Shown piece by piece: positions 59,625 through 64,000 of a stretch of DNA of 64,000 bases. The notes beneath the pieces were generated by a model. That model searched no databases. It worked only from the letters and a program-made list of their open reading frames with translations, and was not told the DNA's origin. Positions within the stretch are counted from its first letter, which is position 1, and the number at the start of each line of letters is the position of its first letter. Source of the DNA: Candidatus Gastranaerophilales bacterium (GTDB taxonomy: Bacteria > Cyanobacteriota > Vampirovibrionia > Gastranaerophilales > Gastranaerophilaceae); the NCBI GenBank assembly GCA_944324405.1, contig CALUWF010000006.1, positions 1 to 64,000 of the forward strand. Direction: 5' to 3'. The position numbers and the translations under genes were made by a program.

Positions 59625-60206
59625 TTAGTTAGAAAAATCTACCTTTGGCACTTGTTTGTCCGCTTCATCAATTTCAAAGTAATCTCTTTGTTTTATGCCG
59701 GAAATTGAAGCTATAATTGAAGTCGGAAACATTCTTATTTTGCCGTTAAGTGCTTTAACACTTTCATTGTAATCCATTCTTGCAACAGTTATGCGATTTT
59801 CAGTACCCGAGAGTTCATCTTGCAGTGCTATAAAGTTCTTATCTGCCTTAAGCTCGGGGTACCTTTCAACAACAAGCAGCAGCCTTGAAAGGGCTCCGCT
59901 TAGCTCTCCGGCGTTTTTCTGAACCGATTTTATGTCATTGGCGTTAAGCGAGCCTGAAAGTTTTGCCCGCGCTTGCGCAACGTCGTTAAAAACTTTACTT
60001 TCATGCGCTGCATAGCCTTTTACGGTTGCCACAAGATTTGGTATAAGGTCATTTCTGCGTTTTAGCTGGTTATCAATCTGCGCCCATTTTGAATTAACGT
60101 TTTCATCCATAAGCTGAAGTGAGTTGTAAGAATTTACAAACATAAAGCCTAAAATTACAATCACAATCAGCACAATGCCGAATATTGTGAGTCCTTTGTT
60201 TTTCAT
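59625..60206 (-). CDS. LemA-family protein
   Basis: The 193-residue protein has one N-terminal membrane helix (LTIFGIVLIVIVILGFMFV) and the LemA helical domain: NSYNSLQLMDENVNSKWAQID, LKRRNDLIPNLVATVKGYA and RISVARMDYNESV-like ITVARMDYNESVKAL. LemA proteins are inner-membrane proteins of unknown function, often encoded next to TPM-domain proteins, as here. It abuts the preceding gene directly. Confidence 0.93.
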   Translation of the reverse strand: MKNKGLTIFGIVLIVIVILGFMFVNSYNSLQLMDENVNSKWAQIDNQLKRRNDLIPNLVATVKGYAAHESKVFNDVAQARAKLSGSLNANDIKSVQKNAGELSGALSRLLLVVERYPELKADKNFIALQDELSGTENRITVARMDYNESVKALNGKIRMFPTSIIASISGIKQRDYFEIDEADKQVPKVDFSN

Positions 60207-60908
60207 TTATCCTCCTTGTATTGAATTTACGTAACACAACAGTATTTCAAGCTCAGAAATTAGGTTATCAAGTGTTTTATATGTTTCTTTACGTTTTATT
60301 TTTGCCTCACCTGTTTTATTTTCAAGCAGCGCAATAAAAACATCTTGTGAGAAACCGCAAATCTTAGAAGCACATTTGATTACGTTTTTATCGTCATTTA
60401 AACTTAAAGTGCCGTTTAGCCTTAGTATTGCTCGAAATACCGTCATAAAAGTTTTAACGCATGGGCAAAAAGCTTCTCTCAGGCGAATTTTAGAGTCCGC
60501 ATTTGCAAGGTAAAACGACCTTAAGTGCATTAAAAGCGCCTTGATTTCCCTTTCGCATTGAAGCCTTAAATCTTCCTTGCTTATTAAAATTTGTGAAATA
60601 TAGTCCTTTCCGAATATAATCTTATGAAAATCTATGATATCTGAATATTCCATAGGATAGGTGTCTGCCGAGCATTTCCATTCGTCATAAGTTATAAAAA
60701 CCGGCATAGGGTTACCGCCGCAGACCCATTTTTTTGTGACTTTTGAACATTTTCTCAAGTCTTCACCGGATAACCTGTCTAAAATAATCATAAGGTTCAC
60801 ATTATCTTTTTGTTCATATCTTAATGTCGATCCGTAAATAAATACGGATTTTAGATTTTCGGAAAAAATTTCATATAAATTTTTAACATAATTTTCAATT
60901 TTATTCAT
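60207..60908 (-). CDS. Nucleotidyltransferase-like protein, degenerate
   Basis: The 233-residue protein begins like an MNT-type nucleotidyltransferase: LKSVFIYGSTLRYEQKDNVNLMIILDRL near residue 18 has the GS..R part, but the catalytic Asp pair is replaced by Asn-Val-Asn. The rest is helical (a HEPN-like or unknown C-terminal part). It sits precisely between the lemA and TPM genes with no gap on either side, so it is part of that operon. It is probably not an active transferase. No signal or membrane segment is seen. Confidence 0.7.
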   Translation of the reverse strand: MNKIENYVKNLYEIFSENLKSVFIYGSTLRYEQKDNVNLMIILDRLSGEDLRKCSKVTKKWVCGGNPMPVFITYDEWKCSADTYPMEYSDIIDFHKIIFGKDYISQILISKEDLRLQCEREIKALLMHLRSFYLANADSKIRLREAFCPCVKTFMTVFRAILRLNGTLSLNDDKNVIKCASKICGFSQDVFIALLENKTGEAKIKRKETYKTLDNLISELEILLCYVNSIQGG

Positions 60909-61622
60909 TTACCAACCTCCCGAGGCTCCGCCCCCGCCGAAACCTCCGCCTCCTCCAAAGCCTCCGAAGCCGCCGGAGCGCGGAAATCCGCCAGTACCTG
61001 CAATAAAGGGAAAAACAACGTGCGAAGATTGCGGCGAGAGTACATACGATAATACAAATATTAAAACGAGAATAAATATTACATAGTCAAGTCCGGTCGG
61101 ATTATCTTGCAAGGGTTCGATTTCAGGCGGATTTTCGCTTAATGTTTGGCCATACCCCTTGGCTATATCGGATGCAAGAGTATATATACCGAGCATAATT
61201 CCGTCTTGGTATCTGTATTCTTTGAAGTAAGGAGTCATTAAATCCCGAATTCTGCCGGCATGTGCATCTGTTATAATGTGTTCCAATCCATAACCGATTT
61301 CAATTCTCATAACTCTGTCTTTGACAACAACAAGGATAACTGCGCCGTTGTTAAGTTTTCTGTCGCCGATTTTGTAGCTTCTGCCTATATTGAGTGCCGT
61401 TTCTTCAAGTCCGGCGCCATTTAGTGTATTTAGCGTAACAAGTGCTACATCTGCTTTTGTTTTATTTTGCAAGTCAAATAACAACGCATTTATTTGCTTT
61501 TTTGAATTTTGCGTAAGCACATTTGCATTATCGCTAATAAAGCCGTCAAATTTGAGGTTACCAAGTGCAAAAGATAAGCTTGATATAAGAAATAAAATAA
61601 ATATTAATATTATTTTTTTCAT
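60909..61622 (-). CDS. TPM-domain (YgcG-like) membrane protein
   Basis: The 237-residue protein has a signal peptide (MKKIILIFILFLISSLSFALG), a TPM domain (GFISDNANVLTQNSKKQINALL, KADVALVTLNTLNG, LNNGAVILVVVKDRVMRIEIGYGLE) and one C-terminal membrane helix (YVIFILVLIFVLSYVL) with a Gly-rich tail ending GGFGGGGASGGW. TPM proteins are periplasmic-facing and are often paired with LemA. It is the first gene of the three-gene block. Confidence 0.92.
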   Translation of the reverse strand: MKKIILIFILFLISSLSFALGNLKFDGFISDNANVLTQNSKKQINALLFDLQNKTKADVALVTLNTLNGAGLEETALNIGRSYKIGDRKLNNGAVILVVVKDRVMRIEIGYGLEHIITDAHAGRIRDLMTPYFKEYRYQDGIMLGIYTLASDIAKGYGQTLSENPPEIEPLQDNPTGLDYVIFILVLIFVLSYVLSPQSSHVVFPFIAGTGGFPRSGGFGGFGGGGGFGGGGASGGW

Positions 61623-61694: not shown

Positions 61695-61721
61695 TTGACA
61701 ATGAGAACTCTTTATTATAAT
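61695..61721 (+). promoter_or_regulatory. Promoter of the DtxR-type operon
   Basis: Consensus -35 TTGACA (61695-61700) and -10 TATAAT (61716-61721) with a 15-bp spacer, slightly short. The expected start, near 61728, falls within the first GTTAG-N6-CTAAC site, so occupancy of that site would block transcription. Confidence 0.75.
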
Positions 61722-61757
61722 GTTAGGCATGTCTAACAGATGTTAGGTCAATCTAAC
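61722..61757. promoter_or_regulatory. Two tandem DtxR/MntR-type operator palindromes
   Basis: GTTAG-N6-CTAAC occurs at 61722-61737 and again at 61742-61757, 20 bp apart (two helical turns). The form resembles metal-dependent DtxR/MntR/IdeR sites (TTAGG-type half-sites). A DtxR-family gene lies second in this operon, so feedback control is likely. Confidence 0.82.
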
Positions 61758-61769
61758 AAAGGAGAAAAT

Positions 61770-62828
61770 ATGAAATTATCTTCAGTCGGTAAATTCTTAG
61801 ATCAGCCTTTACTTTCCAATACTCTTCAGCGTAAAATGCCTGTTATCTTAACAGGTGCCGCTCTTGCGTATGGAGTTGCTGATACTGTATCACAGCCAAA
61901 GTCAGAGAGAAAAAATCGTGCAATTAAAAATGCAACAATACTTGGTTCGATTACCGCTTCCACTTTATTGGGGGTTAATTTTATAAAAGTAGGCGGTGAA
62001 AAGCTGATTGAAACTCTTCCAAAAGAAGAAATTTTGGCAAGACAAGGTAGTGTAATTGCAAAATTTAAAACTTTAAACCCCTCAATTGACACAAGAGCAA
62101 ATGAAATATTAACAAAGGCGCAAAAGAAAATGTTGAATTTAGCAGAAACTGATGAACTCCTTAAAAGCATTAAGAATAAACCGGCTTCTGATGAACTTAT
62201 AAATTCTTTATTTGGCGCAAATAAGAATATTACCTCAAAAGAAATTTTTAATGAAATTTCAAAACTTTCAATAATGGGATTTATCCCGGTTGCAAGCGGA
62301 ATAGCGGGCGGAATTGCAGCAGACAAGTTAACAGGTGAATCGTCTAAAGAAAAAACGACAAACAAAATTAAGGAAGGAATATATCAATTTTTTGCAAATA
62401 TATTTCTGTGTAACGTTGGTGCGGGCAGTTTCCTTTTTGCTGCGGAAAAATTAAACGAAAAAGGTTTAATTAAAAATTTTACCCCGCTAAAAAAGACTGC
62501 CGTAATATTAAGCGGAATATTATCTGTTGGTGTTCTTGGCGGAAGTTTTATCGCTAATAAAATAGGAAATAAAATCGTCAATCCGATTATTAATAAAATT
62601 GAGAAAAAACCTGGCAGTGCATGCAATAAGTACGAACAAAGAGTTCCGGAGCCTTTGGATATTGCCTTGCATACGGATGACATTGCAACAGCAGGTGTTC
62701 TCTCGGGTGTAAAATGGATTGAACCGCTTTTACCTGTTATGTATTTAATATCGGGTTATAGATCGGCAATTGGCTATAGAAATGCCGATAAGCTTGACAA
62801 AGCTAAAAATCACGCCCATAATTGTTAA
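61770..62828 (+). CDS. Uncharacterised multi-helix membrane protein in DtxR-type operon
   Basis: A 352-residue protein from ATG 61770 (AAAGGAG before it). Several hydrophobic stretches are seen: VILTGAALAYGVADTV, TILGSITASTLLGVNFI, IMGFIPVASGIAGGIA, FFANIFLCNVGAGSFLF, KTAVILSGILSVGVLGG and IEPLLPVMYLISGYRSA. Between the second and third is a Lys-rich helical stretch. No transporter family is recognised. Operators of DtxR type precede it and a DtxR-type gene follows with no gap, so a link to iron or manganese is plausible. It could be a membrane protein of the metal response or an unrelated passenger. Confidence 0.8.
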   Translation: MKLSSVGKFLDQPLLSNTLQRKMPVILTGAALAYGVADTVSQPKSERKNRAIKNATILGSITASTLLGVNFIKVGGEKLIETLPKEEILARQGSVIAKFKTLNPSIDTRANEILTKAQKKMLNLAETDELLKSIKNKPASDELINSLFGANKNITSKEIFNEISKLSIMGFIPVASGIAGGIAADKLTGESSKEKTTNKIKEGIYQFFANIFLCNVGAGSFLFAAEKLNEKGLIKNFTPLKKTAVILSGILSVGVLGGSFIANKIGNKIVNPIINKIEKKPGSACNKYEQRVPEPLDIALHTDDIATAGVLSGVKWIEPLLPVMYLISGYRSAIGYRNADKLDKAKNHAHNC

Positions 62829-63284
62829 ATGGCAAAATTTAACGAAGAATACAGGGGCGAATTAGAAGTAAATAAAAATATTTCTTCAAGCCTTGAAGAT
62901 TACCTTGAAGCGCTGTATTTGATTTATATCGAGCATAAAATCGTAAAAGCAATAGATATTTCCCGTGCATTAAATGTAAGTCGCGCTTCAACTACTGAGG
63001 CTCTTAAAAAATTAGCTGAGAAAAATCTAATTAACTATGGCAGATATGGTGTAATCTCAATAACTGATGAGGGTGCCATAAAAGCACAAGAGGTAATTAA
63101 AAAGCATAATTCACTTTATAACTTTTTCAAGAGTGTTCTCGGGGCATCACATACGGAAGCCCAGGATAACGCTTGTAAGATTGAGCATATAGTATCAAAA
63201 GATATTTTAGAGCGTATTGTTGCGTTTACCGATTATTATTCAAAGAACTTTGGCGACGACTTTAAAAAGAAATACTTTTCATGA
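62829..63284 (+). CDS. DtxR/MntR-family metal-dependent regulator
   Basis: The 151-residue protein shows the family N-terminal winged helix: SSLEDYLEALYLIYIEHK, then AIDISRALNVSRASTTEALKKL and ISITDEGAIKAQEVIKKHN. The dimer and metal domain follows (LGASHTEAQDNACKIEHIVSKDILER) with His and Glu residues typical of metal sites. It lacks the C-terminal SH3-like domain. It is joined to the membrane-protein gene (TAAATG), and the operon starts with two matching palindromes. Confidence 0.92.
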   Translation: MAKFNEEYRGELEVNKNISSSLEDYLEALYLIYIEHKIVKAIDISRALNVSRASTTEALKKLAEKNLINYGRYGVISITDEGAIKAQEVIKKHNSLYNFFKSVLGASHTEAQDNACKIEHIVSKDILERIVAFTDYYSKNFGDDFKKKYFS

Positions 63285-63291
63285 TTTACCT

Positions 63292-63313
63292 TTGTGTTAT
63301 CATTATAACACAA
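63292..63313. promoter_or_regulatory. Second MarR-type operator, before the EmrB-like gene
   Basis: TTGTGTTAT-CATT-ATAACACAA, the same core as the marR-emrA/TolC operator at 35211-35238, with only the 4-nt centre changed. It lies 13 bp before the EmrB-type ATG, at the expected promoter, and 7 bp after the DtxR-type gene. Confidence 0.85.
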
Positions 63314-63326
63314 GGAATTTTTTAGT

Positions 63327-64000
63327 ATGCCAAAGCAGAAAACAACAAAAAAAGTAAATCCTTACATTATTGCATTTACAATACTCTTACCCGCTTTTAT
63401 GTCAATGGTGGCATCTTCTGCAACAAATGTTTGCCAGCCGCACATTGCAGGTTATTTTGGTGCAACGCCATATGAAGCAAACAGCGTAATCACGGCATAT
63501 ATAATCTCAGGCGGCATAATGCTTCCTGTATTTGGCTGGTGGGTAAATACCTGCGGTAAAAAAAGTGTTGCGCTATGGTCGGTTAGCCTATTTGCCGTTG
63601 GTTGTATTTTGTGTCTTTTGTCAAAAGATTTGCATATGTTAATATTATGCAGGATATTCCAGGGTGCAGCAGGCGGCGCACTTTTGCCCCTTGCGCAGGC
63701 GGTTTTGCTCGAAACTTTTCCGCCGGAGAAAAAAGGGGTCGCCATGGGCTTTTTTGGATTTGCCGCAATGTTTTCTCCGCTTTTTGGCCCGTTTGTCGGC
63801 GGATATTTGACAGATAATTACTCTTGGCAATGGGTTTTTATTATGAATATTCCGTTATGTCTTTTGAGCCTTGCCTTAATTAAGCTTTTTATAAAAGATG
63901 ACAAGCCGGAAAGCCCCAAAAAAATGAAAATGGATTATGTTGGTCTTTTTTCAATTATTATTGCTATGGGAGCTATGCAAATAGTACTTGATAAAGGTGA
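63327..64000 (+). CDS. emrB: EmrB/QacA-type MFS transporter (partial, runs off window)
   Basis: The reading frame from ATG 63327 (AAGGA upstream) is open to the window end, giving 224 residues. It starts MPKQKTTKKVNPYIIAF and shows DHA2-family motifs: VCQPHIAGYFGATPYEANSV, SGGIMLPVFGWW with CGKKSVALWS as motif A, CRIFQGAAGGALLPLAQAV as motif C-like, FGPFVGGYLTDNYSWQWVF and the loop after it. This is the inner-membrane pump partner expected for EmrA and TolC. A MarR-type palindrome shared with marR-emrA lies 13 bp upstream. Its 3' end is outside the window. Confidence 0.9.
   Translation, partial: MPKQKTTKKVNPYIIAFTILLPAFMSMVASSATNVCQPHIAGYFGATPYEANSVITAYIISGGIMLPVFGWWVNTCGKKSVALWSVSLFAVGCILCLLSKDLHMLILCRIFQGAAGGALLPLAQAVLLETFPPEKKGVAMGFFGFAAMFSPLFGPFVGGYLTDNYSWQWVFIMNIPLCLLSLALIKLFIKDDKPESPKKMKMDYVGLFSIIIAMGAMQIVLDKG

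Follow-up and report, generated by a model that had tools for sequence, protein, structure and literature searches.

Within the window, by which is meant the whole analysed stretch of 64,000 nucleotides at the start of contig CALUWF010000006.1 from a Candidatus Gastranaerophilales bacterium, positions 61695-63315 span a self-contained transcription unit that comprises a promoter, two operators, the gene for a membrane protein (MP), the gene for a DtxR-type regulator (dtxR) and a hairpin. The unit is best explained as a self-repressed iron-response operon, in which MP plays a role in iron starvation; we assign this reading a probability of roughly 0.62. As a circuit it is familiar, a self-repressing DtxR unit, and the membrane protein at its centre is of a new kind. 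The case for the regulatory reading is strong, and MP is a promising candidate for a component of iron uptake, or of survival under iron starvation, that has so far gone unrecognised. A sequence-only reading of the region had described a DtxR-type regulated operon with an unrecognised membrane protein, and conservation among relatives supports this description well.

The promoter (61695-61723, plus strand) consists of TTGACA at 61695-61700, a spacer of 17 bp and TAATGT at 61718-61723, with an overlapping TATAAT at 61716-61721 (15-bp spacer). It was seen directly in the sequence and is conserved in the family, the arrangement TTGACA-17-TA[AT][AT]GT being identically positioned with respect to the operator in most MP orthologues; a generic promoter scan did not list it, because its -10 box is poor. 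Operator 1 (61722-61737, GTTAGGCATGTCTAAC) overlaps the -10 box, and operator 2 (61742-61757, GTTAGGTCAATCTAAC) begins 20 bp further downstream; neither is assigned to a strand. Both are perfect copies of GTTAG-N6-CTAAC, so that the tandem sites reported earlier are real, and their placement over the start of transcription appears a fair reading, the promoter running into operator 1. MP (61770-62828, plus strand) is an all-helical membrane protein of 352 residues, whose ATG lies behind an AGGAG; the list of open reading frames places the start further upstream, at the ATG of 61740, which gives 362 residues. The dtxR gene (62829-63284, plus strand) starts at the first base past the MP stop codon and encodes a short metalloregulator of the DtxR/MntR type. 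A terminator-like hairpin (63290-63315, plus strand) ends the operon, parting the two genes from an EmrB-type MFS gene at 63327, and the unit is compact, as had been proposed. Back to back with it, on the minus strand (59625-61622), are genes for LemA and a TPM-domain (Psb32-like) protein, which flank an unrecognised gene of 233 aa.

Exact GTTAG-N6-CTAAC occurs twice in the whole genome of 1.8 Mb, both times in this promoter region (the mirror-word control gave one match), and the suggested scan for other sites therefore yielded no further exact copy in the own genome. Weaker operators, with up to three mismatches, were not in excess in the own genome (6 versus 10 for the control word), and inexact matches within the window were no commoner than in shuffles.

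The operon was then compared across 146 genomes of the same family. MP was present at full or near full length in 106 of these genomes and a PF02742 regulator in 125, and the two genes lay within 3 kb of each other in 80 of the 102 genomes holding both, which answers the earlier suggestion to look for homologues next to metal regulators. The gene order is variable: site-MP-dtxR in the genus of the window, dtxR-site-MP in several genera and site-dtxR-MP in others. The exact site was present in all 41 of the MP loci fetched first. An absence of the sites upstream of orthologues had been named beforehand as a refutation. Of 72 distinct MP orthologues for which upstream sequence was available, 63 carry GT[A/T]AG-N6-CT[A/T]AC, either at MP or at the dtxR-MP operon, versus none of the 72 for control words of the same composition. 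Several of the nine orthologues lacking the site carry diverged palindromes, e.g., GTTCGGCTAACCGTAC. A promoter could be recognised at 62 loci; at 58 of them the site overlaps the region from -35 to about +6, most commonly from the -10 box onward. Where MP and dtxR are unlinked (loci L007-L010), the site is still located at MP. The MP of Candidatus Galligastranaerophilus intestinavium is 72% identical to that of the window. One genome without full-length MP (G084) has 18 exact GTTAG-N6-CTAAC sites, compared with 0-5 in the others; they may represent a family of repeats or a regulon that has expanded.

The consensus over 86 operator sites leans to GTTAGGCATGCCTAAC, with TTAGG/CCTAA half-sites 4 bp apart, as for one dimer; it thereby has the CCTAA half-site expected of IdeR and DtxR operators. 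The IdeR box is TTAGGTTAGSCTAACCTAA (PMC10317159), a 19-bp element for two dimers, whereas each operator of the window is a single-dimer site; in our reading, TTAGG-N4-CCTAA is the geometry of one dimer contact in that box. Covariation between the recognition helix and operator variants is suggestive, though confounded by kinship. Judged from the sequence and its conservation, this DtxR very probably represses the operon.

MP gave no significant match in Pfam, NCBIfam or PDB profile searches, and 64 orthologues shared no Pfam match; the other refutation named beforehand, membership in a known non-metal family, is therefore not borne out. The AlphaFold2 model, based on the 64 sequences, is all-helical and confident (pLDDT 89, pTM 0.86), and Foldseek comparisons of the full model with the PDB and viral models, and of a 190-aa core model with the PDB, returned no significant match. 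Hydrophobic segments are located near residues 63, 172-178, 215 and 248-256. Six polar residues, E202, N263, D297, H301, D303 and D304, are invariant in the MP orthologues and in three paralogues, and the set could plausibly form a site for a divalent cation. Outside the same family, full-length orthologues turned up in the record MW495066 alone, while a family of shorter paralogues of about 250 aa extends to one other family of the order; a search for MP relatives in viral contigs and plasmids found none. The paralogues in loci L107 (1181-1933 and 2022-2798) and L108 (884-1543), of about 220-260 aa and sometimes in tandem, share the six residues, and no exact operator is present in these loci.

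Known metal transporters of the FeoB, Nramp, ZIP, FecCD and ABC-3 families resemble MP in presumed physiological role only: MP matches none of their profiles or folds and forms a separate family. Nramp and ABC-3 permeases were found in none of the 146 genomes. FecCD was found in 12 and FeoB in 33 genomes (none of the six in the genus of the window), and ZIP in 127, including the own genome. FeoB and ZIP are nearly complementary over the 146 genomes (Fisher p about 2e-8, uncorrected for kinship), and MP goes together with ZIP, which is present in 102 of the 106 MP genomes (likewise uncorrected). FeoB occurs in 18 of the 106 MP genomes versus 15 of the 40 others, a weak anti-association (p = 0.014, uncorrected for kinship). 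A simple replacement of FeoB by MP was accordingly rejected, since the clear complements are FeoB and ZIP. No convincing operator was seen at the ZIP loci examined, nor at the FeoB loci, many of which cover little upstream DNA. Because ZIP genes free of the operator occur in the own genome and in most relatives, MP does not stand alone as a candidate importer. The iron-importer set of the lineage is thin, and the membrane protein that has stayed under the control of the regulator is MP.

The strongest competitor to a direct role in transport, which we regard as a serious though minority possibility, is that MP is a membrane or envelope factor of iron starvation that carries no metal itself, e.g., a transporter partner, a scaffold or an iron-sparing remodelling protein. 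The lack of a transporter fold, the glycine-rich helices and long, polar, helical middle region of MP, and the co-occurrence with ZIP all fit such a factor, as does the co-regulated DUF2023 gene described below, which is no known transporter: DUF2023 and flavodoxin are iron-responsive and yet do not transport the metal. The invariant E, N, D, H, D and D, as expected of a cation site, argue in the other direction. Moreover, the constant partner of the regulator in DtxR/MntR operons is usually an importer, and MP is the most constant partner of this regulator. The sequence-only reading had left MP as either a transporter or an envelope factor; residue pattern and regulation fit the transporter, and the fold of one was not found.

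The regulator contains both domains of the DtxR superfamily, PF01325 and PF02742 (Fe_dep_repress and Fe_dep_repr_C; 47.5 and 56.4 bits against Pfam cut-offs of 26 and 27), together with the conserved metal ligands, and the earlier description of a short DtxR-type regulator holds. It is 151 aa long, has no C-terminal SH3/FeoA-like domain or further Pfam domain, and is accompanied by no other PF02742 protein in the own genome. Some members of the family encode a second DtxR-type protein that is longer (open frames of about 165-195 aa), and the four fetched loci (G136:C2:179661, G120:C3:106256, G113:C79:3905 and G084:C5:3520) showed no close operator match.

Alignment to solved MntR structures placed the predicted ligands at D24, E27, H93, C116, E119 and H120, which are invariant in 57 of 57 family members. 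The set is mixed, the Asp being the choice of MntR and the Cys that of DtxR. The protein resembles DtxR and IdeR in its two domains, in a Cys at the position of DtxR C102 and in an operator placed over the promoter, and differs from them in the missing SH3 domain and in Asp24 at the place of Met10, so that the primary site of DtxR proper (Met10 plus Cys102) is present only in its Cys. With the MntR of B. subtilis and E. coli it shares size, domain order and equivalents of Asp8, Glu11, His77, Glu102 and His103; in contrast, Cys116 replaces MntR Glu99, in the window protein as in the whole family. The best match for the hybrid Asp, Cys, Glu, His set is PgMntR of Porphyromonas gingivalis, which binds both Fe(II) and Mn(II) and requires its Cys for full Fe(II) binding (PMC4805248). 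PgMntR differs in having twin FeoA domains, and that it also binds Mn(II) counts against the iron reading.

Further evidence on the metal comes from relatives, in which extra copies of the operator lead to a second target, the DUF2023 genes, which have the operator no more than 60 bp from their start in 24 of 30 loci. These genes (L139-L168) are a second conserved regulon member with the same DtxR-type operator. In Bacteroidetes, DUF2023 and flavodoxin are among the genes most strongly induced by iron depletion, the DUF2023-fldA operon rising 48-fold in P. gingivalis, about 160-fold in P. intermedia and 598-fold in B. thetaiotaomicron (PMC10434189). The DUF2023 relative in the own genome (C18:16627-16920) is divergent and lacks the operator; in this genus, the iron link thus rests on the regulator and on the relatives. 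DUF2023 is sometimes located beside the MP-DtxR operon (e.g., G102, G076 and G010) and sometimes near ZIP transporter genes (e.g., G065, G098 and G005). In genus g18 it is followed by a signal-peptide-like protein in which an SRHHA motif is conserved (L109:2434-2883 and L110:3441-3890), which is probably encoded in the same operon and matches no known family.

The record MW495066 contains a distant, full-length MP homologue (30% identity) in which the six invariant polar residues are retained. Three clustered repeats lie 101-174 bp upstream of it, namely an exact TGAGAATAATTCTCA and copies with one and two mismatches, within 74 bp; 0.34 such repeats would be expected in the whole 13 kb. By resemblance they are read as Fur-box-like. 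The record (MW495066.1; loci L241-L244) bears the name of a Microcystis phage, MaAM05, and is labelled a complete genome. Its genes include rplK, rplA, rpoD, smc, secDF, fliM, tRNA genes and many metabolic genes, and since it carries ribosomal proteins, rpoD, smc, secDF and fliM it looks like a misfiled contig of a bacterial chromosome, probably from a relative of the Gastranaerophilales lineage.

These data bear on a second alternative, in which a genuine MntR makes the operon respond to Mn(II), and MP serves in the import or handling of manganese. MntR models score best in NCBIfam, the closest solved structure is an MntR, the Asp at the D8 position is MntR-like, and no Nramp or ABC-3 manganese importer, the usual targets of MntR, was found in the 146 relatives. 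The NCBIfam scores (67 and 65.3 bits), however, are far under the equivalog cut-offs of 138 and 153, the Cys in place of Glu99 is a feature of DtxR, and both the co-regulation of DUF2023 and the Fur-box-like sites favour iron. A manganese operon is consequently considered unlikely. The DUF2023 operators, the hybrid ligand set and the Fur-box-like sites make iron the likely metal, and the metal link that had been supposed for MP is retained, with iron more likely than manganese.

A role for MP as a metal exporter, activated by the regulator at high metal, is highly improbable. Exporter genes can be activated by DtxR-family proteins, and MntR activates manganese exporters in Bacillus. The operators, in contrast, lie across the -10 box and start site or else occupy the promoter spacer, which is the position of a repressor; the otherwise good TTGACA promoter needs no activation, and co-regulation with DUF2023 argues for expression at low iron. 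That the sites are chance palindromes and the MP-dtxR pairing is without function, as half-sites of only 5 bp and the shuffled controls might suggest, is refuted by their uniqueness in the genome, their occurrence in all of the first loci and in most orthologues versus none for control words, their fixed promoter spacing and their retention at unlinked MP genes.

In the preferred reading of a self-repressed iron-response operon, DtxR loaded with Fe(II), and perhaps also with Mn(II), would bind the tandem TTAGG-N4-CCTAA-like operators as dimers and cover the -10 box and start site, shutting off MP and its own gene. Under iron shortage, DtxR would release the DNA, and MP would be made and inserted into the membrane, where it may take part in the acquisition of ferrous ions, with the invariant E, N, D, H, D and D making up the site for the ion. 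The operon layout, operator, promoter overlap, gene linkage, ligand residues and DUF2023 target are all supported by sequence and conservation; from them we infer DNA binding, Fe as the effector and induction on starvation. The regulation and the invariant residues of MP together suggest a role in ferrous-metal uptake. That MP directly moves or handles the ion is the most speculative part and has slightly less than an even chance: no relation to any solved transporter is detectable, for the whole protein or its core. Against an iron role, the paralogues with the same residues are not known as metal-regulated. More doubtful still is the proposal that MP founds a new family of ferrous-metal transporters. 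These would be iron-starvation importers, restricted to Gastranaerophilales and their close relatives, with an E-N-D-H-D-D site inside the membrane and a fold not represented in any solved structure, in a lineage mostly without FeoB, Nramp, ABC-3 and FecCD.

Iron acquisition by the non-photosynthetic gut relatives of cyanobacteria appears to be undescribed, and none of the papers searched names Gastranaerophilales together with DtxR. The usual iron importers are missing from most Gastranaerophilales genomes. The operon offers a testable entry to this subject: the regulator with its operator, DUF2023 as a further target linked to iron, and a membrane protein whose invariant polar residues make up a short list. 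Should MP carry iron, it would represent a new transporter family; if it does not, it would represent a new iron-starvation membrane factor.
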